A DNA stretch of 26,024 nucleotides from a virus. Under the pieces are notes generated by a model. That model was not told the DNA's origin, did no database searches, and saw nothing but the letters and a program-made list of their open reading frames with translations. A program made the position numbers and the translations under genes. The stretch spans positions 1 to 26,024 of the IMG/VR virus record IMGVR_UViG_3300021139_000127, one strand, 5' to 3'. Shown here in pieces: positions 2 to 11,652 of this stretch (its first letter is position 1; each line of letters opens with the position of its first letter).

Positions 2-133
2 TTTCTTGTTGTAAAGAAGATCCAGGAAGATGAGCGTGAGGCGTGTGCAAATAGAGCCAGTGTTGCCCTGCTAGGTACGCTTCAGACAACCACAGATAGG
101 GTATTAAAATCTATTAGAAAAGAACAAGAATGA
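2..133 (+). CDS. Unknown protein, 3' end only (truncated by window edge)
   Basis: An open frame enters from the left edge and encodes 43 residues before a TGA stop. The visible part is charged and probably helical, with no recognisable motif (it ends in KSIRKEQE). Its stop overlaps the start of the next gene in an ATGA arrangement, which is the junction style of this whole plus-strand operon and supports it being real coding sequence. Function unknown; the N-terminal part lies outside the window. Confidence 0.5.
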   Translation, partial: FLVVKKIQEDEREACANRASVALLGTLQTTTDRVLKSIRKEQE

Positions 134-303
134 CTAAAGAAGAAATATTAACTAAAGATTATGCGTTAGCAGTTGCACTTGAGGCACTTGTGTTGGCTAG
201 GACTCTTTCAACTGGTAAAGCGAGTGATCAATTCCATAATGCCATAGAAATTATTAAAAGAACATTTATAGAACAGCAAGGGGACAAGAATGAACATACA
301 TGA
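130..303 (+). CDS. Small unknown protein (57 aa)
   Basis: This short frame starts with ATG inside the stop codon of the preceding gene (ATGA) and ends 14 nt inside the next gene. It encodes a mostly alpha-helical, soluble-looking peptide with an alanine/leucine-rich stretch around residues 12-25 and a basic patch near residues 43-46. There is no good Shine-Dalgarno sequence, so translation probably depends on coupling to the upstream gene. No family recognised. Its reality rests on tight packing and absence of any other frame here. Confidence 0.55.
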   Translation: MTKEEILTKDYALAVALEALVLARTLSTGKASDQFHNAIEIIKRTFIEQQGDKNEHT

Positions 304-496
304 CCCACAAAAAGACATTGACTACTTGGTCGCTAAAAACAACACCAAGGATCTGGCGGAGGCTATTTTAATAGCTATCCTGTACCTTAAAGACTCAGAG
401 GGAAAGTTGCTGAGGGTCAAGCTAGGCGAGACATTTCAGGACCAGATTAATTTTGCAATGCAGATAGCTAAGATGCTAAGGGGAGGACGAGATTGA
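290..496 (+). CDS. Small unknown helical protein (68 aa)
   Basis: The frame begins with ATG preceded by a purine-rich Shine-Dalgarno sequence (AGGGGA). It encodes a helical protein with a hydrophobic central helix (LAEAILIAILYL, residues 22-33), too short and too flanked by charge to be a confident membrane anchor. It overlaps the previous gene by 14 nt, and its last codons contain the ribosome-binding site of the metallophosphoesterase downstream. No domain recognised. Likely an early accessory protein, by position only. Confidence 0.6.
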   Translation: MNIHDPQKDIDYLVAKNNTKDLAEAILIAILYLKDSEGKLLRVKLGETFQDQINFAMQIAKMLRGGRD

Positions 497-1029
497 ACAC
501 ATTCTTTACAGCGGACACGCACTTTGGCCACGCAGGCGTGTGCAAGTTCCTGCGCGATGACGGGACCAAACTGCGGCCATGGGATAACGCCGACGAGATG
601 GACGAGGACCTGGTCAAGTACTGGAACGAAACAGTTAAGCCAAACGACAAAGTCTACCACCTGGGCGATGTGGTCATCAACCGCAAGGCGCTTAAGACGA
701 TGGCCAGGCTGAACGGGGACAAGATTTTAGTAAAGGGAAACCATGACATCTTTAAACTTGAGGACTACACGCCGTACTTCAGGGACATTCGTGCCTACGC
801 GGTACTCGACAATATCCTCTGCTCGCATATCCCTGTACACCCCGACTCAAAGGGACGATTTCGCGCAAACGTGCACGGGCACCTGCACTCCAATATTGTC
901 TGCAAGCCTGACGTTTACCGTGGCGGCAAGCCGGTCCGAGACCCATGGTACGTCTGTGTCTCGGTAGAGCACACCAACTTCAGGCCTATCAGCTTTGAAG
1001 AGGTAAAGAAACAACTGGAGGTTATATGA
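493..1029 (+). CDS. Calcineurin-like metallophosphoesterase
   Basis: This 178-residue protein has the metal-binding signature of binuclear metallophosphoesterases in order: D8-x-H10 (ADTHFGH), G58-D59 (LGDVV), G82-N83-H84-D85, H112 (CSHIPVHP), and H128-G-H130-L-H132. These residues bind two metal ions and hydrolyse phosphomonoester or phosphodiester bonds; the true substrate is not visible. The start is TTG, chosen because a strong AAGGGGAGG site lies just upstream and the first metal ligand is already at residue 8; the next in-frame Met (residue 36) would remove it. The start overlaps the previous stop (TTGA). Adjacent RNA ligase and kinase genes suggest a role in RNA-end processing, for example removing 3' or cyclic phosphates. 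This is inference; nucleotide or protein phosphatase activity is also possible. The gene is clearly richer in G+C than the small genes around it. Confidence 0.9.
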   Translation: MNTFFTADTHFGHAGVCKFLRDDGTKLRPWDNADEMDEDLVKYWNETVKPNDKVYHLGDVVINRKALKTMARLNGDKILVKGNHDIFKLEDYTPYFRDIRAYAVLDNILCSHIPVHPDSKGRFRANVHGHLHSNIVCKPDVYRGGKPVRDPWYVCVSVEHTNFRPISFEEVKKQLEVI

Positions 1030-1190
1030 ACAAGAAAGTCTTTTTCTCGATTTTGATATTTGGTGCTTTTATGGCGTGGCTATCTGGCTATAATTTTGAC
1101 TACAGAAGTGAGGGGGTGGCATCTTACTTTTTCTTTGTTATTGGGATTTCTTTTATGGCGTCCATAGCGCCTGAAATGTGGGATGAGTAA
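1026..1190 (+). CDS. Small two-segment membrane protein (54 aa)
   Basis: The ATG overlaps the metallophosphoesterase stop (ATGA) and is preceded by TGGAGG. The product starts with MNKK, followed by two hydrophobic stretches (about residues 5-20 and 32-46) around a short polar loop (GYNFDYRSEG), so it should sit in the inner membrane as a hairpin. No family recognised. Such small early membrane proteins in phages sometimes act in superinfection exclusion or host takeover, but nothing here demonstrates that. The base composition is AT-rich compared with the genes on each side. Confidence 0.7.
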   Translation: MNKKVFFSILIFGAFMAWLSGYNFDYRSEGVASYFFFVIGISFMASIAPEMWDE

Positions 1191-1457
1191 ATGGATATTG
1201 AAGTACTAGACCCAATAACAGACCTCAGCGAGTTTATAGCGTTCTGCACGCAACCCATGGTGCAGATTACCCCACAGTTTATGCAACAGGCTACACAAAT
1301 AGCCAACGAGTGTGCTAAACTGCGAAAAGAAGTTAAAAAGCTAAACCAGATAATCAGCCTACAAAGGAAAAAGTATGAAGTTTCTAAAGATAGAAAGTCT
1401 AAGCGATCTGTTGCCGTTCGTGGAGGACAAGAAAGAGATCAGCATCCGCAAGACTGA
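1191..1457 (+). CDS. Small unknown protein with basic coiled-coil segment
   Basis: The ATG abuts the previous TAA directly and has GGGA upstream. The first 60 residues look like a genuine protein: an acidic N-terminus (MDIEVLDPITDLSEF) followed by a helical, lysine-rich segment around residues 34-62 with heptad-like hydrophobics. The last 28 residues are read from within the RNA ligase gene and look like frame-shadow sequence (rich in K, R, G, Q). The 83-nt overlap is unusually long for this operon. Function unknown. It could be an authentic gene with a meaningless tail, or its end could have been altered when the ligase gene was inserted. Confidence 0.55.
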   Translation: MDIEVLDPITDLSEFIAFCTQPMVQITPQFMQQATQIANECAKLRKEVKKLNQIISLQRKKYEVSKDRKSKRSVAVRGGQERDQHPQD

Positions 1458-2493
1458 CGACGGAGGCACCACGGTTGTCTACCGATTCCTGGACTCCAAG
1501 ACGTTTGACAGCTACGAGTCCCTGGAGGCCCGCGGGATCATGTTCGATGACCTGGACCGCGTCATATCGCGCCCACTGCACAAGTTCCATAACCTGGACT
1601 CTACGGGCTCCGGCGTCAACACGTACACCCGAGACTACATACTGGCCAACAAGGACCAGGTAAAGGCCATCTACGAGAAGCTAGACGGGTCCATGATATC
1701 CACCGCCAACTTCAACGGCACTGTGCGCCTGCGCTCCAAGAGCGCGTATGGCACAGACGTATGCAGACTGGCCTACAAGATCTACAACCAGGATCGCGAC
1801 ATTCAGTTCCTGTGCATGTTCTGCGTCGAGCGCGGGCTCACGGCCACGTTTGAGCTAACACACCCACAGTCACGCATCGTGCTCGCCTACAGCAAGCCTG
1901 AGCTACGACTGCTACACATCCGCGACAACGTCACCGGCGAGTACGTTACGGACCAGATCAGGGCCGCGCAAAACGTCAAGCAGTGCCCACAGATACCCGT
2001 GACCCGCCTTGAGGAGATCATCTCCCGCGAGCACCTGGAGGGGCTCAAAAACGAGGAGGGGTACGTGATCCAGTTCAGGGATGGGGACATGGTCAAGGTT
2101 AAGTGCCCCTGGTACGTCGGCCTGCACCGCGTGGTTACCTTTGTCCGTGAGCGGGACATCGCCAATATGGTCCTTGAGGAGCGCCTGGATGATGTATACT
2201 CAGCGTTTGCACACCTGGGGATTGACGTTGAGTCAATTGAAATAATTGAGAGCGCGGTTAAGAACAAACTGATCGAGATAGCCGACCAGGTTGAGCAGGC
2301 CTACCGGGAGGTGACCGCTGAGAAGTTAAGCCGTAAAGATGTGGCGTTGCGCTACGATGGTTGGGACTTTCGTAGCCTGCTGTTTACCATGCTTGACGGC
2401 AAAGAGCCTAAGTACAAGGAGTACTACAAGCGCAACATACTGGACAAGCGTTGGGGCTTAAATGTGGTAGGTAACGTAGGAGAAAAAGAATGA
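1375..2493 (+). CDS. RNA ligase, T4 Rnl1 type
   Basis: The 372-residue product matches the size (374 aa) and motif order of T4 RNA ligase 1. It has an upstream EARGIMF segment and SRPLHKFHNL (residues 51-74); motif I with the adenylated lysine K102 in EKLDGS; a strand resembling nucleotidyltransferase motif III with E160 (TFELTHPQSRIVL); motif IV EEGYVIQF (227-234); and motif V VKVK (240-243). A helical C-terminal domain of about 120 residues follows, as in Rnl1. The family joins 3'-OH and 5'-phosphate RNA ends using ATP, and in T4 it reseals tRNA cut by the host anticodon nuclease PrrC. The start has AAGGA seven bases upstream. The kinase gene follows with an ATGA overlap. Base composition is markedly GC-rich compared with the small genes upstream, compatible with separate acquisition. 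Confidence 0.93.
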   Translation: MKFLKIESLSDLLPFVEDKKEISIRKTDDGGTTVVYRFLDSKTFDSYESLEARGIMFDDLDRVISRPLHKFHNLDSTGSGVNTYTRDYILANKDQVKAIYEKLDGSMISTANFNGTVRLRSKSAYGTDVCRLAYKIYNQDRDIQFLCMFCVERGLTATFELTHPQSRIVLAYSKPELRLLHIRDNVTGEYVTDQIRAAQNVKQCPQIPVTRLEEIISREHLEGLKNEEGYVIQFRDGDMVKVKCPWYVGLHRVVTFVRERDIANMVLEERLDDVYSAFAHLGIDVESIEIIESAVKNKLIEIADQVEQAYREVTAEKLSRKDVALRYDGWDFRSLLFTMLDGKEPKYKEYYKRNILDKRWGLNVVGNVGEKE

Positions 2494-2909
2494 GCACACT
2501 AACACTAATACGCGGACTGCCCGGATCCGGCAAGAGCACACTGGCCGCCAAGTTAAGTAACGAAGCGGAGCGCAACACTGTTTGGCTTGAGGCCGATCAG
2601 CACTTTACTAATGAGGACGGAACGTATCAATTCGATATTAATAAAATTGGTGAGGCACACCTGAAATGTCAGAGTAGCGCACGCCGCTATTTAGAGCATA
2701 AATTTGACGTTATTGTGTCTAACACGTCCACAACGCTGAAAGAGATGCGCCCATACTTTGAGATGGCCAAAGAGCTTGGCGCAGAGTTTACCGTTATCAC
2801 CTGTCAGGGTCACTTCAAGAACGTGCACAACGTGCCGGAGGAGACTCTGTCAAAGATGGCCATGCGCTTCTTTTACGGTGACGTAATAGCCGCACTGGAG
2901 AGAACGTGA
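2490..2909 (+). CDS. P-loop kinase, probable 5'-polynucleotide kinase
   Basis: The 139-residue protein begins with a Walker A loop, GLPGSGKST (K15, S16, T17), followed by ADQHF with D36. In T4 polynucleotide kinase the equivalent positions are K15, S16 and the general base D35, so the spacing fits a polynucleotide kinase well. The middle segment (DVIVSNTSTTLKEMRPYFEMA) and the end (HNVPEETLSKMAMRF) resemble the N4BP2-like/AAA_33 kinase family. Unlike T4 Pnkp there is no C-terminal 3'-phosphatase domain. It would phosphorylate 5'-OH RNA ends so that the adjacent ligase can join them. The start overlaps the ligase stop (ATGA) and has AGGAG upstream, so the two are probably made together. The main alternative is a nucleotide or other small-molecule kinase of the same fold. 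Confidence 0.85.
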   Translation: MSTLTLIRGLPGSGKSTLAAKLSNEAERNTVWLEADQHFTNEDGTYQFDINKIGEAHLKCQSSARRYLEHKFDVIVSNTSTTLKEMRPYFEMAKELGAEFTVITCQGHFKNVHNVPEETLSKMAMRFFYGDVIAALERT

Positions 2910-4852
2910 TCTACAGCATCGACTTTGAGACCCGAAGTGTCATTGACTTAAAAGAGAATGGCCTTGATATCTACGCCAACGATAAGAGTACTGAGGTACT
3001 TTGCATTGCCTTTGGAACTGTTTTAGATAACGTGACTATTGTTGGTCTAGAACAAAACGTATTCGTTGATGATTTAGTTGTGCGTAGACATAAGTTTAAT
3101 GGCCTTATTGAGCACGTCCGAGCAGGCGGAAAGATCCAGGCCTGGAACGCGCTCTTTGAATACGCGATCTGGAACTGCGTCTGCGTGCCAAAATACGGTT
3201 GGCCAGAACTAAAATTGAGCCAGGTGATTGACTCCATGGCCATAGCCGCGGCCAATAACGTGCCACAGAGCCTGGAAGAAGCCGCGCTTTTTATGGACTC
3301 CGCGCACAAAAAGGATCCCATTGGCGCAAAATTGATCCAAAAGCTATGTAAACCTCTCAAAAACGGTAACTTTAACAACGACCCGGAGCTGCTACAACAA
3401 CTCTACGAGTACTGCGTTAAGGACGTCAAGGCTGAGATGTCGATCGTGGCCAAGCTACGGGGCCTAAGCGCCTCTGAGCAGGCCATATGGGAGCTTACAC
3501 AGCGTATCAACCTTAGAGGCGTGCCAGTGGACCCTCTTGAGCTAAAAAACGCTCAAAACGCGGTTAAAAACGCCCAAGACGCCATAGATCAGGAGCTACT
3601 CAACCTAACTGGCTGTAAGCCATCCGAGCGTGCCAAACTGCTTGCCTGGCTAAACGCTCACGGGGCGGATATGAAAGACCTTACTGCTGACACGGTTATT
3701 AAGAAACTTGCGGAGGACTTTATTTCTAAGAACGTGCGCAGGGCACTCGAACTACGCCAGGAGGGCAGTCAGACTAGCGTAGCCAAATACAATAAAATGT
3801 TGGAGATACAAAGAAATGGAAGAATTAGAAATACATTGGTCTATCACGGCGCGTCTACTGGCCGTTGGTCTTCGCGTGGTGGACTTAATCTTCAAAATAT
3901 CGCGCGTCCCGTACTTGGCGATGCACAGATTGCAGAAGCGATTCCAAGAGTCTTTGGCCGAGGAATTGGCACGATGTCAGAACTCTCGTCTCTGGTTAGG
4001 GGTGCACTTAAAGCTCCTGACAAGCAGACCTTCGTGGACGTCGATTTTTCTTCAATCGAAAACAGAGTGGGAGTTTGGTTGGCCGGCCAAAAAGACAAAG
4101 TTGAATTATTTAGACAGGGGCTAGATGAGTACAAAACCTTTGCCTCAACAGCACTGTATAAAATACCATATGACCAGGTATCCAAAGAACAGCGCCAGAT
4201 TAGTAAATCGGCTGTGCTTGGTTGTATGTTCGGCCAGGGATCTAAGGGCCTGGTAGAGTACGCCGATGGTATGGGCGTTAAGATGTCTCTCGGTGAGGCT
4301 GAGAGGGCCGTAAATGCGTACAGGCTGTCCTACGCAAGGGTAAAGAACTTATGGTACGAATGTGAAGAGGCGGCGATTAATGCGGTACAAAACCCGGGCA
4401 CTGCATTTGCTGCAGGTAACAAGATCCGACTAAAGTGTGAGAACAGAACGCTGTGGTTGATACTGCCTAGTAAGCGTTTAATCTGTTGGCAGAGACCGCA
4501 ATTAGATATGGTTATGACCCCGTGGGGCACTCAAAAACTCGCCGTCACCGTCCACAGTCAGAATACTTACACCCGTCAATGGAGTAGAAACGCGCTCATT
4601 GGGAGTAGCATATTCCAGAGCGCAACCCAGGGGCTCGCTCGTGACTTCCTGGCCCATGCTTCGCTTAACGTTGAAGAGCACGGATACGGAATACTCAATT
4701 TGATCCATGATGAGGTCCTATTGTTGACTGATGCTGAGAACGCTGAGTTTCATATGGAGGAGGTCATTAGAATTATGACCACACCCCCTAGTTGGGCTCC
4801 AGATATGCCACTCGCCGCTGAGGGATGGCACGGAGACCGTTATCGCAAGTGA
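2906..4852 (+). CDS. polA: DNA polymerase, family A, with 3'-5' exonuclease
   Basis: The 648-residue enzyme has an N-terminal DnaQ-like proofreading exonuclease (D6-F-E8; NALFEY at 81-86; YEYCVKD at 168-174) and a family A polymerase domain. Polymerase motif A is DVDFSSIENRV (378-388); motif B is R430-x3-K434-x7-FG; motif C is H601-D602-E603. TGRWSSRGGLNLQNI (318-332) is the typical segment before motif A. It copies the phage genome. Aligning motif B with E. coli Pol I (R754, K758, F762, Y766) places Leu438 at 762 and Phe442 at 766. The start is GTG, set by GGAGAG five bases upstream and a GTGA overlap with the kinase gene. There is no 5'-nuclease domain. The 3' end overlaps the convergent late operon by 13 nt. 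Confidence 0.97.
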   Translation: MIYSIDFETRSVIDLKENGLDIYANDKSTEVLCIAFGTVLDNVTIVGLEQNVFVDDLVVRRHKFNGLIEHVRAGGKIQAWNALFEYAIWNCVCVPKYGWPELKLSQVIDSMAIAAANNVPQSLEEAALFMDSAHKKDPIGAKLIQKLCKPLKNGNFNNDPELLQQLYEYCVKDVKAEMSIVAKLRGLSASEQAIWELTQRINLRGVPVDPLELKNAQNAVKNAQDAIDQELLNLTGCKPSERAKLLAWLNAHGADMKDLTADTVIKKLAEDFISKNVRRALELRQEGSQTSVAKYNKMLEIQRNGRIRNTLVYHGASTGRWSSRGGLNLQNIARPVLGDAQIAEAIPRVFGRGIGTMSELSSLVRGALKAPDKQTFVDVDFSSIENRVGVWLAGQKDKVELFRQGLDEYKTFASTALYKIPYDQVSKEQRQISKSAVLGCMFGQGSKGLVEYADGMGVKMSLGEAERAVNAYRLSYARVKNLWYECEEAAINAVQNPGTAFAAGNKIRLKCENRTLWLILPSKRLICWQRPQLDMVMTPWGTQKLAVTVHSQNTYTRQWSRNALIGSSIFQSATQGLARDFLAHASLNVEEHGYGILNLIHDEVLLLTDAENAEFHMEEVIRIMTTPPSWAPDMPLAAEGWHGDRYRK

Positions 4853-5664: not shown

Positions 5665-7223
5665 TATAGTAATCCAGATAGCCCACCCTGGGCCTGCTTT
5701 TGTACGTTCATGGGGTTAAACATTATTGCGGAGGGCTTTGTGTTATCTGGGTACAGCGCGCCGGAATAACCATGCTCTTTAATCATGCGCTCCAGGTCGC
5801 TATCCGCGTTGTATACCAGTCCTTGGTTAGCACTGGCCGTATACGGTGTTCTATTAGCTTCTTTGGCCAGTATACCAAGCCCCAGTGGATCCGCGCTCAC
5901 GTCATAAAGATTACTGGATGATGTTTTGTACTTGTAGGGACCCAGTCCAAGCTCTGGCGTCTGATCGCCTGCGTAGAAGTAGGTCCGATCCTTTACTGCG
6001 CCGGAGTAGTTCTTAAGCCTATCAGCCTCAGCGCCCGCTATGCCGGTCCCGTACTTAGTCGGATCGGTCTGTTTTAAGTCTGGCGAGTTACTAAAATGCG
6101 TAAGCTCAGATGCTGTTGTAGTGCCCTCTTGCGGCTTGATAAGCGGCTGAATATAGTCAGGCATACCGCCGGTGTAGTTAGTGTCGTGAAATTCTGGGGG
6201 CAGTATTACAGACTTCTGCGGGGCGTACTGAAAGTTATTCCACGCGTTTTTCTTTTGAGCCTCAAGCTCGGGTATTTTGTCTAGTTCCCCTGCACGTTTA
6301 GCATCATATATTTTACCGTCTAATTCATTAATGGCTTTTTTAACAGCCGCATTTAATGGTGTGTAATTTACTACACTATTTTGACCTCTAGTCTCTGAAG
6401 TCATGGCCAACTTAGCCAGTGGAGAAAACATTTGAGAGTGAGCGCCCCATGCAGTCTCTTCACCCTTGGGTCCAAAAGAGTTACCATGTGCGGCATGGCC
6501 ATAATAATCATGCACGGCCCTAAATTTTTCGTTCGTGTTAAGACCAGTTGTTGGATCCACAAAGTTTAAAAACTCATGTGGATCTCCTCCTTGAAACACA
6601 TAAAGATGATTATTGCCTATCACATCTTTTAACATTTCATTACTAGAATGATAATTGCCCTCACCATTCTGGTGAAAGCTCATATTAACGGGCAAAGTGC
6701 TAAACTGGTCTTCAGTCTCTTTGGCCAACTGACTATATGATTTATTTACCAAATCATCATAGTCTTTGATGTTGTGCTGTTCAATAAGATCAGGCATCTG
6801 TTTTTTATATGCGTCAAACACCGCGGTTTTATATGCAGGATCTTCTGTTGTGGCATGCAAAAAAGTGCGGCCAATTGCTGATTGTTTAGCCAAAGAACTC
6901 TCTGGCATATTGGGCAACGCGTATGGTTTTTGAAGCGTGTTGTTAGTGTACGCGTTGGCCCGTTGCTTTACGTGGTTGTTGGGGTCTTTGGCAAAGGCTT
7001 TGACCTGTTCATCCGATACTGTTGGTGAAACATCGTATCCACGTAGTCCTGACGTTTCTCTGACTCCTCTCGTTGGTGCCGCGCCTCTTGGTTGGACTCT
7101 GAGGAATGGTCCTTCTTGTCTTGCTTCATGTATGATCCTTTCAAGTTTTGGCATTGTACCACTTAAAGCCTCTTTGCCAAGCTGTAGCCCCGCCTTTATT
7201 TCAGGTAGTGTTGGAAGCGGCAT
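5664..7223 (-). CDS. Internal virion protein: HDYYGH domain plus ART-like C-terminal domain
   Basis: The 519-residue protein has three parts. Residues 1-118 are variable and basic. Residues about 120-300 form a strongly patterned domain with FRAVHDYYGHAAHGNSFGP (H238, D239, H243), the conserved acids of GEETAW, H262 of AHSQMFSPL, and SETRGQN (275-282). I recall this signature from polyvalent phage proteins; the cluster of His, Asp and Glu suggests a metal site or an enzyme. Residues about 374-505 look like an ADP-ribosyltransferase-like fold of the polyvalent type (HFSNSPDL, RTYFYAGD, then GYSGALYPDN and AIMFNPMNVQ). It ends with QGGLSGLL. The HDYYGH domain is encoded by distinctly AT-rich DNA inside a GC-richer gene. 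One-base TAATG overlaps join it to both neighbours. Activity unproven. Confidence 0.78.
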   Translation of the reverse strand: MPLPTLPEIKAGLQLGKEALSGTMPKLERIIHEARQEGPFLRVQPRGAAPTRGVRETSGLRGYDVSPTVSDEQVKAFAKDPNNHVKQRANAYTNNTLQKPYALPNMPESSLAKQSAIGRTFLHATTEDPAYKTAVFDAYKKQMPDLIEQHNIKDYDDLVNKSYSQLAKETEDQFSTLPVNMSFHQNGEGNYHSSNEMLKDVIGNNHLYVFQGGDPHEFLNFVDPTTGLNTNEKFRAVHDYYGHAAHGNSFGPKGEETAWGAHSQMFSPLAKLAMTSETRGQNSVVNYTPLNAAVKKAINELDGKIYDAKRAGELDKIPELEAQKKNAWNNFQYAPQKSVILPPEFHDTNYTGGMPDYIQPLIKPQEGTTTASELTHFSNSPDLKQTDPTKYGTGIAGAEADRLKNYSGAVKDRTYFYAGDQTPELGLGPYKYKTSSSNLYDVSADPLGLGILAKEANRTPYTASANQGLVYNADSDLERMIKEHGYSGALYPDNTKPSAIMFNPMNVQKQAQGGLSGLL

Positions 7224-9898
7224 TATGCGGCCTCTTTCAATTGAGCTAAACCGCCTTGTTTATATCCCAGATTACGCAAAGTTTTTTCTGTTAATATTCC
7301 GGCTTGTGGCCCCATTTCAAGTGCTCTTAAATCAATACGAGCAGGATTGGCAGGGTCAACAAGACCACGTTGAAGAGCTTTTTCTCTTAACAATTGATAA
7401 ATATTATGATTGCCACTTATTTGACCTAATCCAACACCTGGAGCAAATGATGGGTAGGAAAAGTTTCCGCTATTACGCAATACCGGTTTATCTGGATGCA
7501 ATTGACCAATATGTAAAATGCGGCCATCAGAACCAACCAATTGTTCTGGGTCTGTAATTGCTAATCTAGCTTGACCTAAACCAATACCCCCCTCATCTCT
7601 CATATGTTTATCTAAAATATTTTGTACTTGTTTTCTAACATTTGAGGGCGATTTTAAAAACTGATCTACGCTTGATGGATCATTTATACCTTTCCAATCT
7701 GGAATAATTGATCTCATATGATTATCTAATGCCATTTTTTGTGGTGCTGACATTGCAGCATCCGCATGGGCTAACATGGTTTCACCAGTCATATGAGCAA
7801 AATCACTACCCGATGGAGACATCTGCCATGGAATAAAGAGTGGATCTTTTCCACCAGTAAAATCTTTTAACGCGGATCCAAGTCGCATCATATCATCGGT
7901 AGGTACATCTCCGCCGGCCCAAAGATAGCCTGGATTGTTATACATAAAATGTTGTCCACCAGTACGATTAACTGGCCGATTAAACATTACATTATTTATA
8001 CCTAATAATTTTGAGCCGGCCGCTGTTCTATCAGCCATTCCAGTGATAAATGGATACCCTTCATATTGAGTCATATCTACTTTTGGAATATTTGTAGGAC
8101 CTGTTTGTTCTTCGTGAACAACCATATTTTGAACTTTTGGTAATTCTTTAACTCGTTTTTCAAATCTAGGATCAAAATTACTAATAGTTCTTGATGTGGG
8201 TGCGGCAAACATAGGTTGAGGAGTAATAGCCCTTAACATACTATTGCCCTCACCCATCATGGCTTTATTAATCTCCGATCCGGCTAACTTACCAACTCCC
8301 TTAATTCCACGCGCTATCTCACCAGGTCCGGCCAAAGGCGACCAATCGCCCGCAGCACTGGCCATCTTAACCAGGTTGGAGTTCATCCTTGCAGGATCAT
8401 TTGTGACCTCTGGGAACATTTGTTTTAGTTCCTCAGATCCATAGGGAGCATGTTCTAACCTATCTCCAGTTATGGCATTAGCTAGATTGTATATGTCAGA
8501 CGGTGCGCCAAGTGTTGCAGCAGTGGAGCTTCTTAATCCACTAGCTAGCGTATCACCTAATGCAGTCAATGGAGCACCAAAGCTCTTAACGTCATTAACT
8601 ACACGGTCTGTTGTCAGTGGTCCGCCTTGATTGGGCTGTCCGCCCCTTCCAAAATGCTGCACAGCGCCACCATCTGCATGCCCTGGAGGCTCATCGGCAA
8701 TTAAGTGTGCTAGACCGGCAGCGCCAGGGCCAATTAATCCCGCGTACTTACCAACCTTTGGAATGTGTGATAAGAATGGGGCAGCAGCACCCACTGAGTT
8801 AATTGCGCCTGCTATCTTATTACGAATACCTGGCTCTTGAAAACGTTCTGCGGCCTCGCCTGCGTTCCATCCTGCCAATGGTATTTGACCAGGTAATTTA
8901 CTTGCTCCGCCAATTAGTTTTGCCTTAGCAATTCTATTAGCCTCTTGTGCCATTCTGGCCTCTTCGGCTTTCTTTGCAAGTTGAAACTCTGATTGGCGTG
9001 CCGCATGAGCATTTTGTTTTTCGGCGTTAGTTGCTAAAAAACTAGACTGCCTTTCCTGCTCTGCCCTTGCATGATTAGCCTCTCTTTGTTTTTCAATATC
9101 ATTAAATGTTCTTAACCTGTGCGCTTCTCTATCTTCATGGGCTTGGCGTCTAGCCTCTTCAGTACGCTTGTGCTCGGCCTCTCTTTGATTCTCAGATTGC
9201 TCATGTGCAGCACGAGCGCTCTCTTCACGTTGAGCACGTTCAGCCTCAAGTTTATCTCTATACTCTTGTTCTTTTTGTGCCGCTACTTCAGGAGGCAATG
9301 CAAGTGATGTTCCACCCTGTGGGACTACAAATCCAGTGTTGCCGGCGTTAAACTGTTTTGCCGCCATAGCTTTTGCATATGCATCTTCGTAGTCTTTGCC
9401 ACCAAAGAATTGACCCTCACCTTCAGGTCCCTTATGTTGCGTTAAGCTGTAGTTTTCAACCGCATTTGGACCCTTGTCTAATTCAGGCGGTAAACCTGGA
9501 AACTCACGACGCTCAAACTCAGCGCCAGGTACATATGGCTTACCAGGAACATAAATACCTGGCTTATACGGTGCTCCAGGCTTATACGTGCCCTGTGTAA
9601 ATTCACCAGGGTTTTTAGGTAATGGATTCGGTTCAGATGGATGGTAGTCTGGGAAATCAGAATTAAACCAGTTCTTACTGCCAAAAGGCAATCCAACTAC
9701 TTGTGCGCCACCTGCACCAAGTGCACCTAATGCGGGATATGCCGCCTCGGGATGCAAGGTATTTTGGGATGCACTTGGAGCAGTTGGTGTGGTAGATGTA
9801 GTCGGAGAATCTTCCGCAGGCACTACATTAGACGCAGTTTGCGGTCTAAATACGTCAGGGTGAAGATCTTCTTGAGGTACTGGAGTTCCAATTGCCAT
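7223..9898 (-). CDS. Large multidomain internal virion (ejection) protein, 891 aa
   Basis: Regions in order: residues 1-100 disordered and Pro/Ser/Thr-rich; 103-127 a short repeat of the form YxPGxP; 205-325 a long, highly charged coiled coil rich in Glu, Arg, Ala, Gln and His; 360-402 a Gly/Ala-rich hydrophobic stretch (AGAINSVGAAAPFL, YAGLIGPGAAGLAHLIA) that could insert into membrane; 408-426 the xGG motif cluster (ADGGAVQHFGRGG); about 605-870 a conserved domain with EGYPFITGMADRTAAG, RPVNRTGGQHFM and PGYLWAGGDV, a pattern I recall from polyvalent phage proteins. The C-terminus is KQGGLAQLKEAA. The composition, membrane-active middle and size fit a protein packed in the capsid and ejected into the host. 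The DNA encoding the C-terminal domain is much more AT-rich than the middle. Confidence 0.8.
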   Translation of the reverse strand: MAIGTPVPQEDLHPDVFRPQTASNVVPAEDSPTTSTTPTAPSASQNTLHPEAAYPALGALGAGGAQVVGLPFGSKNWFNSDFPDYHPSEPNPLPKNPGEFTQGTYKPGAPYKPGIYVPGKPYVPGAEFERREFPGLPPELDKGPNAVENYSLTQHKGPEGEGQFFGGKDYEDAYAKAMAAKQFNAGNTGFVVPQGGTSLALPPEVAAQKEQEYRDKLEAERAQREESARAAHEQSENQREAEHKRTEEARRQAHEDREAHRLRTFNDIEKQREANHARAEQERQSSFLATNAEKQNAHAARQSEFQLAKKAEEARMAQEANRIAKAKLIGGASKLPGQIPLAGWNAGEAAERFQEPGIRNKIAGAINSVGAAAPFLSHIPKVGKYAGLIGPGAAGLAHLIADEPPGHADGGAVQHFGRGGQPNQGGPLTTDRVVNDVKSFGAPLTALGDTLASGLRSSTAATLGAPSDIYNLANAITGDRLEHAPYGSEELKQMFPEVTNDPARMNSNLVKMASAAGDWSPLAGPGEIARGIKGVGKLAGSEINKAMMGEGNSMLRAITPQPMFAAPTSRTISNFDPRFEKRVKELPKVQNMVVHEEQTGPTNIPKVDMTQYEGYPFITGMADRTAAGSKLLGINNVMFNRPVNRTGGQHFMYNNPGYLWAGGDVPTDDMMRLGSALKDFTGGKDPLFIPWQMSPSGSDFAHMTGETMLAHADAAMSAPQKMALDNHMRSIIPDWKGINDPSSVDQFLKSPSNVRKQVQNILDKHMRDEGGIGLGQARLAITDPEQLVGSDGRILHIGQLHPDKPVLRNSGNFSYPSFAPGVGLGQISGNHNIYQLLREKALQRGLVDPANPARIDLRALEMGPQAGILTEKTLRNLGYKQGGLAQLKEAA

Positions 9899-11652
9899 TA
9901 TTTATACACCCATTGTTTGCCATCCCATACGCTCATTTTTCCTGATTTAGTTGGACGTTCTTCACCAACTTTTGGAGGGATAGTTTTGTCGTTAAAATAT
10001 TTTGGAAAGTCTTGCTTGAGTTGTTTCTCGTATTTATCTTCTAATGCTTGATTTTCAGGAGACTGTATAAAATCATAAGGATCTGGATTATCGTGTGAGT
10101 TTTTATATTGACTCCACAAAGTTGCTTGCTCTTTTGCTTTTTGTGCGGCGGCTCTAATAATCGCTGAGTTCATTATGTTACTCTCAGCGGTATATTGTGT
10201 GCCAACACCCTTAGCATCAATTGCCATTTTCTCAAGTGCCGCACCAAGTCTTGCGCCAGATCCTGCAAACATTTGCTGCGCATAATCAAGACCCAATTTC
10301 TGTGCATTAGTATCTGTCTTGCTACGCTCTTGGATTGACTCTTCAGGCAATGTTAACTTACCGTACGCTTTTTCTGCACTTCCACCAACATATGGCAGGT
10401 GTGATATAGCACCAACAGCGGCAGGTACTATGCCTGCATGTTCTGTGATACCAAAGTCATAGGGGCGTCTAGTAGCATGGTCAATAACTTGATTGGCTGA
10501 TAAAGCAATCTCATCTGCCCGCTTACCGTTTTCTTCTACCTTAGAAATAAATTCACCGGCTTTTTTACGCTCTTCTGCAGTAGATTGTGATTTTGCCGCA
10601 TTAATTGCTTGTTGCCTTTTAGCCTCTGTTTCTATCTTAGCTTTAGCTGCCTCTTTAGCTATTTCATTTTGCAATTCTTGTTCTGCTTTTATCTGAGCTA
10701 AAGATTTATATCCGCCAGGTTGAGATACTGTTTGGAATGGTGCAGATTGTTGTTGGCCTGGAATTGCAGAAATTTGCTTGTTCTCAAATTTTAACAATTG
10801 GCCTTGACCTTGACCTTGACCAGGTTGCGGTATTGCATTTACCTGATTAGGCATCAATTTAGATATTGGGGTTTGTGGAGCACCTGGCGCTGTAGCAGTC
10901 GTTGGTTTTCCAGATGCTTGTGGTGTAGTCTGTTGAACTACAGATTTTGGAACAGATCTTCCACTTGGTAATTTTCCAGTGCTCACAAATTCGCGATACT
11001 GTATAGCATTCATATCCTCGACACCAACACCAGGGATATTAAATGGATGTTGTTCGTATGATGCAGGATTGTTTTGGAAGTTTTGTTCGGCCGTATTTCT
11101 AGCCTTATTCATCTCAGCCAGTTGCGCACCAATGAATTTATTGGCCTCTGCTAATCCTGCAGGACCTTGGCTCTTAAGGTATGCGGCATATTGAAGAACA
11201 CTAGGGGGAAGTGCAGATATATCTTGAGTGCCTGCTGTGCCTGCTGTGCCTGCTGTGCCTGCAGTGCCTGCACCGCCTGCAACATTCCCCCCGCGAAGAG
11301 CCTCAAGTTGCTTATCAAAACTGCTTGACATGTTTTGATTCATTTGTTGGCTACCACGTAAGGCAGCCATCTGAGCACGCATGTTGAATATATCTTGCGC
11401 TTGCTGATCTTTATAATTCTGGCGTTGCTGTGACTGACCCACAAGCGCGGCTTGCATGTCTTGTATCGTGTCACCCAAAGGATTAACTTTAGATTTTCTG
11501 TTAATCAAATCTTGCATTTGAGCAAGAAGCTCTTCCGTTTGTGTTGGATCAAGCATGTTGTTGCCAGGAACAGAAATGCCGCCCTTTACTGGAGCGGCCT
11601 TAACTACAGCGCCTGGTAGTGAATCTAATCCACCTGTTGTTTCTTCAGCCAT
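9898..11652 (-). CDS. Low-complexity internal virion protein, 584 aa
   Basis: No enzyme domain is recognised. The first 120 residues are helical and Gln/Met-rich (LLAQMQDLINRK, RQNYKDQQAQDIF). Then comes a (AGT)n low-complexity tract encoded by a 9-bp tandem repeat, a helical segment (AEANKFIGAQLAEMNKAR), a Pro/Gln/Thr-rich linker with GQGQGQ, and a long Ala/Lys/Glu-rich coiled coil (AKAKIETEAKRQQAINAAKS). A second helical domain follows (NAQKLGLDYAQQMFAGSGAR), with a C-terminal KSGKMSVWDGKQWVYK. This layout resembles podovirus ejection proteins by style rather than by identifiable homology. It sits between two other internal-virion-type genes and overlaps the downstream start by one base. 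Confidence 0.7.
   Translation of the reverse strand: MAEETTGGLDSLPGAVVKAAPVKGGISVPGNNMLDPTQTEELLAQMQDLINRKSKVNPLGDTIQDMQAALVGQSQQRQNYKDQQAQDIFNMRAQMAALRGSQQMNQNMSSSFDKQLEALRGGNVAGGAGTAGTAGTAGTAGTQDISALPPSVLQYAAYLKSQGPAGLAEANKFIGAQLAEMNKARNTAEQNFQNNPASYEQHPFNIPGVGVEDMNAIQYREFVSTGKLPSGRSVPKSVVQQTTPQASGKPTTATAPGAPQTPISKLMPNQVNAIPQPGQGQGQGQLLKFENKQISAIPGQQQSAPFQTVSQPGGYKSLAQIKAEQELQNEIAKEAAKAKIETEAKRQQAINAAKSQSTAEERKKAGEFISKVEENGKRADEIALSANQVIDHATRRPYDFGITEHAGIVPAAVGAISHLPYVGGSAEKAYGKLTLPEESIQERSKTDTNAQKLGLDYAQQMFAGSGARLGAALEKMAIDAKGVGTQYTAESNIMNSAIIRAAAQKAKEQATLWSQYKNSHDNPDPYDFIQSPENQALEDKYEKQLKQDFPKYFNDKTIPPKVGEERPTKSGKMSVWDGKQWVYK
11227..11280. repeat. 9-bp tandem repeat (six units, last degenerate)
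   Basis: Units of TGTGCCTGC are repeated head to tail: three exact copies flanked by AGTGCCTGC copies, with a final ACCGCCTGC. Because the unit is nine bases, copy-number change would add or remove Ala-Gly-Thr triplets in the internal virion protein without shifting the frame. It forms a flexible linker between two helical regions of that protein. Confidence 0.9.

Follow-up and report, generated by a model that had tools for sequence, protein, structure and literature searches.

A calcineurin-like phosphoesterase (MPE), a T4-Rnl1-type RNA ligase (LIG) and a short kinase (KIN) are encoded on the plus strand of a phage genome fragment, at positions 493-2909. They fairly probably work together as a module by which the phage heals and seals RNA ends, equivalent in function to bacterial Pnkp but split over separate genes. 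The window, the whole stretch of DNA analysed here, is a 26 kb fragment (26,024 nucleotides), and the phage may carry other repair genes outside it. Cleavage of tRNA or other RNA is a common bacterial defence, to which T4 PseT and RnlA are the textbook answer. In the proposed mechanism, host RNases would cut tRNA or other RNA to leave a 2',3'-cyclic phosphate or 3'-phosphate and a 5'-OH. MPE would open and/or strip the phosphate at the 3' terminus and so leave a 3'-OH; KIN would phosphorylate the 5'-OH with ATP (or GTP), and LIG would adenylylate the 5'-phosphate and join the ends, so that phage translation could continue despite RNA-cutting defences. The substrate would be RNA damaged by host defence, and the enzymes would act in the order MPE, KIN, LIG, with MPE as the healer of the 3' end. 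MPE probably supplies the 3'-phosphatase, and anticodon nucleases may, by analogy, be the target. The analysis establishes the family identities, intact motifs and folds, and a strong, recurrent linkage of the three families.

The genes lie where the original prediction placed them (Table 1), and all of the residues that it named in MPE, LIG (K102 in EKLDGS) and KIN (K15, S16, D36) are present. The prediction also described a single operon. The common strand and the gene order hold, and the LIG and KIN genes overlap by 4 bp, but two small ORFs split MPE from LIG. A second 4-bp overlap joins KIN to the gene for a family A DNA polymerase (PolA), which is the final gene ahead of a convergent structural block. 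Judged by these two overlaps, LIG, KIN and PolA make up the compact unit, and MPE lies some 0.35 kb upstream of it. A search of a defence-gene library gave no match that alters this reading.

Table 1. Genes of the MPE-LIG-KIN region of the window and the adjoining polymerase gene
Feature	Coordinates	Strand	Remarks
MPE, calcineurin-like metallophosphoesterase	493..1029	+	178 aa; TTG start; stop overlaps following small ORF
Small ORF, hydrophobic, unrecognised	1026..1190	+	54 aa; absent in L020
Small ORF overlapping LIG start	1191..1457	+	88 aa; not found in divergent relative L020
LIG, T4 Rnl1-type RNA ligase	1375..2493	+	372 aa; adenylylation site K102 (EKLDGS)
KIN, stand-alone P-loop kinase, polynucleotide-kinase fold	2490..2909	+	139 aa; no HAD domain
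PolA, family A DNA polymerase	2906..4852	+	648 aa; PF00476 94.8 bits; phrog_17 E 1e-85

LIG matches the Pfam family RNA_lig_T4_1 (PF09511) at 75.3 bits, where the curated cut-off is 28.3, and it contains the lysine of the KxDG motif. It matches T4 Rnl1 structures with an E value of 2e-23 and is 30% identical to T4 RnlA over 307 aligned positions. As regards the C-terminal, tRNA-specific helical domain of the T4 Rnl1 type, the two proteins are of similar length (372 versus 374 aa), but BLAST similarity stops near residue 294. The score against TIGR02308, the equivalog model of the T4 RnlA family, is 140.8 bits and does not reach the cut-off of 242, so LIG is a relative of the T4 equivalog and not the equivalog itself.

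KIN scores 53.3 bits against Pfam AAA_33 (cut-off 27) and matches phrog_2071 with an E value of 1e-35; its family at present bears only the annotation 'ATPase'. In an alignment of 37 members, G14, K15 and D36 are invariant and position 16 is either S or T. The predicted structure (pLDDT 89.7) has T4 PNK, Cth PNK, Pnkp1 and PSTK as its top folds, with T4 PNK as the best match (Z 15.6). The absence of a fused phosphatase from the predicted kinase was borne out: the protein ends at 139 aa and has no HAD match in Pfam, and no KIN ORF of a trio locus exceeds 183 aa, apart from a KIN-LIG fusion. The likeness to T4 Pnkp, which the prediction drew from the spacing of KIN residues, is not specific. Its strong T4 match stemmed from T4-type rows in the alignment; once these were removed the match fell to E 4.5e-5, and fungal kinases, T4 PNK and seryl-tRNA kinase were about equally near. 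Membership of the T4 kinase subfamily was accordingly rejected. At two positions conserved in the aligned T4-type kinases KIN differs, with A35 in place of R and N78 in place of D; this weighs against the module reading, as do the solitary KIN relatives in bacterial genomes and the KIN loci that have neither partner.

A survey of co-occurrence in related phages, proposed with the original prediction, was anchored on KIN and MPE because the ligase alignment is without conserved stretches. It recovered 49 distinct loci from IMG/VR and cultured phages that carry all three genes on one strand. These loci show all six possible gene orders, with a median span of 2.75 kb, and 44 of the 49 fall within 5 kb. 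Among the KIN-anchored loci with at least 8 kb on both flanks (n = 35), both partners are present in 15, MPE alone in 8, LIG alone in 2 and neither in 10. Where an MPE is present, it lies within 2.2 kb of KIN in 21 of 23 cases, against about 23% expected from uniform placement, whereas an MPE is present in only 2052 of 50,697 phage records overall. Fusions of KIN with LIG, the only type of fusion observed among relatives, occur in L112, where MPE is 212 bp away, and in L156. Homologous operons had been expected not to lack one of the three genes routinely. This holds only in part: many KIN loci are without Rnl1, but for 7 of the 17 among them that have MPE and KIN the contig encodes an RNA ligase of the PF09414 type. 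In L101, a close relative of the window, a PF09414 RNA ligase stands where the window has Rnl1, with the same MPE and KIN on its two sides, and BLAST finds no significant similarity between the two ligases. The order there is MPE-ligase-KIN-PolA and all four genes overlap, as in L020. Carriers in culture include PaP1, Nitrincola 1M3-16, Aeromonas PAc and BUCT-ZZ01, and many carriers are far below jumbo size. In PaP1, MPE, KIN and LIG correspond to gp026, gp021 and gp022. The trio is not a chance arrangement; it is a recurrent unit in unrelated phages.

A very improbable alternative is that LIG acts mainly as a tail-fibre attachment factor and KIN phosphorylates another substrate, with no RNA repair at all. 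Tail-fibre attachment is the second role of T4 gp63, PHROG annotates the LIG family as a tail fibre attachment catalyst, and close KIN relatives in Vibrio and Thalassospira genomes are solitary genes (80 of 80 loci). The genes of the window, however, sit with replication genes and not with tail genes, and the alignment shows the adenylylation motifs of LIG to be intact. Several trios have a ligase of a short Rnl1 form, about 305 aa long, and an RNA ligase of another family takes the place of Rnl1 in the same operon.

If the trio is a repair module, it resembles the T4 pair PseT (Pnkp) and RnlA (Rnl1) in having a separate Rnl1-type ligase, a kinase of the polynucleotide-kinase fold and, as predicted, the same order of healing and sealing. 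The T4 kinase, however, shares its polypeptide with a HAD 3'-phosphatase, whereas the window KIN stands alone, belongs to another subfamily and has an MPE gene in place of the phosphatase. In keeping with the contrast originally drawn, phages with the T4-type kinase-HAD protein, a control set that is nearly a single clade, have no MPE within 10 kb (18 loci) and no confident match to a window-type MPE (17 records). Bacterial Pnkp (e.g. of Clostridium thermocellum), which acts with Hen1, draws on the same superfamilies: a P-loop kinase (4gp7, Z 14.0 to KIN), a calcineurin-like phosphoesterase and an ATP-dependent RNA ligase. There they form one polypeptide, in contrast to the three separate genes here, of which the ligase is Rnl1-type; no search matched the window MPE to Pnkp, and the window has no recognisable Hen1 gene.

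The component enzymes are of known kinds, and their three-gene form with a metal-dependent phosphoesterase is little described. Within the limited collection of papers searched, none joins a metallophosphoesterase, an RNA ligase and Pnkp; the 2016 article of Burroughs and Aravind (NAR), reportedly the main prior survey, may contain the arrangement. The Pnkp1-Rnl-Hen1 complex of Capnocytophaga gingivalis (PMC4411300) likewise has a separate, cotranslated ligase and kinase that act in RNA repair, but its kinase is fused to a T4-type (HAD) phosphatase and it includes the Hen1 methyltransferase. The general idea of RNA repair sets in jumbo phages has been published (Iyer et al. 2021, PMC7824862); the passages of that paper considered here describe neither a three-gene module nor fusions, a survey of gene orders or an exchange of ligases. 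With the balance about even, we propose a widespread, unnamed phage RNA repair system of MPE, a stand-alone kinase and an interchangeable ATP-dependent RNA ligase (Rnl1 or PF09414). It would be a split Pnkp counterpart that many non-T4 phages have in place of the T4 kinase-phosphatase, and its MPE would found a new family of RNA 3'-end phosphatases or cyclic phosphodiesterases. If this is true, many non-T4 phages, among them cultured Pseudomonas aeruginosa phages such as PaP1, have a second answer to RNA cleavage, in which another enzyme heals the 3' end. A function would follow for a phosphoesterase family of about 2000 phage records and for the KIN family, and RNA repair could be predicted from sequence in phages that bear the trio.

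MPE belongs to phrog_547 (E 2.4e-50 in a profile search). Its score against Pfam Metallophos_2, 22.6 bits, is under the cut-off of 27. The metal-binding motifs of the calcineurin-like superfamily (DxH, GD, GNH, H and GHxH) are all present, and every one of 54 aligned relatives retains D8, H10, D59, N83, H84, H112, H130 and H132. The AlphaFold model (pLDDT 96.2) has only metallophosphoesterases as its top fold matches. The best of these, Aquifex aq_1665 (PDB 1xm7, Z 19.4), also matches the MPE profile (E 1e-25), and MPE thus falls in the 1xm7/phrog_547 family by both profile and fold. That family has no assigned function, so no activity follows for MPE by descent. In agreement with the predicted role, which was not that of a protein phosphatase, the GDxVDRG and GNHE signatures of PPP-type enzymes such as lambda phosphatase are missing (the window has GDVVINR and GNHD), and the structural match to lambda phosphatase is low (Z 8.5). 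Kinship with the phosphatase domain of bacterial Pnkp drew no match in PDB sequence and fold searches, a result that carries no weight as evidence, as the domain may be missing from the PDB search set.

MPE is the weak link of the module reading, since its subfamily is found mostly without KIN or LIG and among replication genes. Neither KIN nor Rnl1 accompanies 63 of its 70 closest relatives, and most other trios have an MPE outside its well supported clade (100/100). In that clade 67 of 78 rows are without KIN or LIG nearby, a count from a set gathered by similarity to the window MPE, so that sampling favours its many unlinked rows. It is conceivable, but unlikely, that MPE belongs to the DNA replication and nucleotide module, where it would serve as a nuclease or nucleotidase alongside RNR and PolA. 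Only LIG and KIN would then form an RNA repair pair, and the 3'-OH would either result from the attacking cut itself or be restored by a host enzyme. Unlinked close relatives of MPE do sit among replication genes, their recognised neighbours including genes for DNA polymerase, DNA ligase, primase/helicase and dCMP deaminase, and in L017 an MPE 79% identical to that of the window lies between SSB and RNR. The two small ORFs between MPE and LIG, and a subfamily that is not that of most trios, point the same way. Against this, MPE directly overlaps the ligase gene in both L020 and L101. The order in L019, which is outside the PolA context, is LIG-KIN-MPE with 4-bp overlaps, and its MPE is of the window's subfamily; MPE subfamilies other than the window's are linked to KIN and LIG as well.

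Less probable again is a role for MPE as a phosphodiesterase or nuclease on small signals (2',3'-cNMPs or cyclic oligonucleotides) or as an RNA-end trimmer, in which case the trio would be a counter-defence cluster whose products share no common RNA. A weak similarity to the PdeM nuclease (32.5 bits, cut-off 150) is consistent with such a role. So is the structural likeness to a Pseudomonas nuclease MPE (6nvo, Z 9.3) and to Mre11 (Z 9.2), which appear with LpxH among the further fold matches. In the Pseudomonas aeruginosa phage PaP1 the trio adjoins genes for NAD+ resynthesis and an annotated HD-region protein. MPE also lies near RtcB, which requires no separate 3'-phosphatase, in Kikimora and Erythrobacter phage L02; these two phages are exceptions, and RtcB was rejected as the usual partner of MPE (0 of 50, 3 of 50 and 0 of 17 records). 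The tight overlaps, fusions and order shuffling that occur specifically with KIN and RNA ligases fit one pathway better.

The metallophosphoesterase (MPE), RNA ligase (LIG) and stand-alone kinase (KIN) genes lie in a plus-strand block of the window, a complete IMG/VR entry whose 26,024 bases represent a phage fragment. The LIG/KIN and KIN/PolA junctions are ATGA and GTGA overlaps, PolA being a family A DNA polymerase gene. Beyond 4852 all genes are on the minus strand, and the recognised ones are virion or lysis genes; two large virion-block genes (7223-11652, minus strand; 891 and 584 aa) have no PHROG match. In the 90-95% identical relative L006, genes for a terminase small subunit, an exonuclease, a gp2.5-like SSB and a ribonucleotide reductase lie upstream of MPE, so that the trio closes a T7-like replication block. 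Between MPE and LIG (window 1026-1457), the small ORFs are unlike their L006 counterparts, which are 196 and 80 aa long, and the related loci L020 and L101 lack them; this gap thus takes up variable genes.

Coordinates of the proposed repair genes in the window and of kinase-ligase fusions in related loci
Feature	Locus	Position	Strand	Content
Gene block	window	130-4852	+	small ORFs, MPE, two small ORFs, LIG, KIN, PolA
MPE	window	493-1029	+	
LIG	window	1375-2493	+	
KIN	window	2490-2909	+	
PolA	window	2906-4852	+	
KIN-LIG fusion	L112	9992-11281		single ORF, about 430 aa, stand-alone-type kinase + Rnl1-type ligase
KIN-LIG fusion	L156	9962-11254		single ORF, about 430 aa, stand-alone-type kinase + Rnl1-type ligase

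Judged by its sequence, LIG is a Rnl1-type RNA ligase; it matches PF09511 at 75.3 bits and T4 Rnl1 structures at E 2e-23, and is 30% identical to T4 RnlA. KIN is a P-loop kinase of 139 aa whose predicted structure (pLDDT 89.7) matches T4 PNK (Z 15.6), PSTK (14.4), Cth PNK (14.0) and Pnkp1 (13.2), with G14, K15 and D36 invariant in the alignment. T4-type kinases, which are fused to a HAD 3'-phosphatase, carry R and D at KIN positions 35 and 78, whereas the KIN side has A/T/S and N. All calcineurin-type metal ligands are present in MPE (model pLDDT 96.2) and are kept in 54/54 relatives. Its nearest solved relative is Aquifex aq_1665, a structure without assigned function (profile E 1e-25, Z 19.4), followed by LpxH (Z 12), a Pseudomonas putida nuclease MPE (9.3), Mre11 (9.2) and lambda phosphatase (8.5).

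It is probable, and well supported by the comparative evidence, that the trio forms one RNA end-repair module. IMG/VR was sampled by KIN sequence alone, and MPE and Rnl1 were then sought with iterated profiles. Both partners accompany KIN in 26 of 78 distinct loci, MPE alone in 17 and LIG alone in 6, on the same strand in every linked locus. Where at least 8 kb was available on both sides (n = 35), the counts were 15 with both, 8 with MPE alone, 2 with LIG alone and 10 with neither; a linked MPE lies within 2.2 kb of KIN in 21/23. The background frequency of MPE is 2052/50,697 phage records, and the small chance probability computed for linkage is no more than indicative, since locus counts treat related loci as independent. 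All samples pooled gave 49 distinct three-gene loci, which span a median of 2.75 kb and show every one of the six possible gene orders. KIN and LIG are fused in L112, with MPE 212 bp upstream, and in L156, where MPE is missing.

The most telling relative is L101, which is arranged as in the window (MPE-ligase-KIN-PolA; overlaps of 11, 4 and 11 bp) and is closely related to it (KIN 56-57% identical, MPE 70%). In place of an Rnl1, however, it encodes an RNA ligase of the PF09414 family (59.9 bits), which shares no significant similarity with the ligase of the window. MPE, KIN and a PF09414 ligase also lie inside about 2.7 kb in L145 and L148, and in 7 of the 17 MPE+KIN loci without a nearby Rnl1 the contig carries such a ligase, scored above the curated cut-off. 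If these genes are an RNA repair module, a healing pair whose ligase can be exchanged is to be expected.

Other observations weaken the RNA-repair reading. The clade of the window's MPE (support 100/100) is dominated by members without KIN or LIG nearby (67/78 rows), a share exaggerated by gathering the clade by similarity to that MPE, and their recognised neighbours are mostly replication and nucleotide genes. PF09511 occurs in just 5/50 contigs of the set similar to this MPE, and the MPEs of most other trios fall outside the clade. In a second MPE sample, drawn with the other subfamilies, 25/78 loci are linked to KIN and/or LIG. Clade composition, neighbours and second sample together indicate a broader phage family joined repeatedly with KIN and RNA ligases, and the activity of MPE may go beyond the healing of RNA 3' ends. 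The reading is also weakened by close KIN relatives that stand alone in Vibrio and Thalassospira genomes. Close homologues (41-50% identity) occur in Vibrio, Thalassospira and Psychromonas genomes, and neither MPE nor Rnl1 was found in the flanks examined at 80/80 bacterial loci (L279-L358).

The further proposal, that MPE replaces the HAD phosphatase, fits the T4-type kinase loci, where MPE is found inside 10 kb in 0/18 and a confident match to the MPE family phrog_547 in 0/17 records (one fragment, E 3.5e-4, 15.9 bits), but this set is nearly one phage group, and outside it Acinetobacter phages of T4-like genome size are listed with an MPE. A role for MPE specifically as a putative 3'-phosphatase or cyclic phosphodiesterase is plausible and slightly favoured. 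By analogy with T4, anticodon nucleases may cause the RNA damage.

The trio resembles the bacterial Pnkp1-Rnl-Hen1 complex in being a split system but differs in its phosphatase, which in that complex resembles that of T4 Pnkp (PMC4411300). Iyer et al. 2021 (PMC7824862) describe RNA repair sets of jumbo phages and already give the idea in general form. A description of the three-gene module was not found in the literature searched, which did not extend to Burroughs and Aravind 2016, the chief previous survey.

Cultured carriers of the trio are Pseudomonas phage PaP1 (gp026, gp022, gp021), Nitrincola phage 1M3-16, Aeromonas phage PAc and Synechococcus phage BUCT-ZZ01 (order LIG-KIN-MPE). Beside the PaP1 trio (L095, 2580-9238) are an annotated HD-region phosphohydrolase, PRPP synthetase and nicotinamide phosphoribosyltransferase; these neighbours point to a possible counter-defence cluster in which RNA repair is combined with NAD+ resynthesis. 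An RtcB RNA ligase lies 2-3 kb upstream of an MPE relative in Brevundimonas phage Kikimora (L098, 875-4549) and Erythrobacter phage L02 (L100, 1297-5606).
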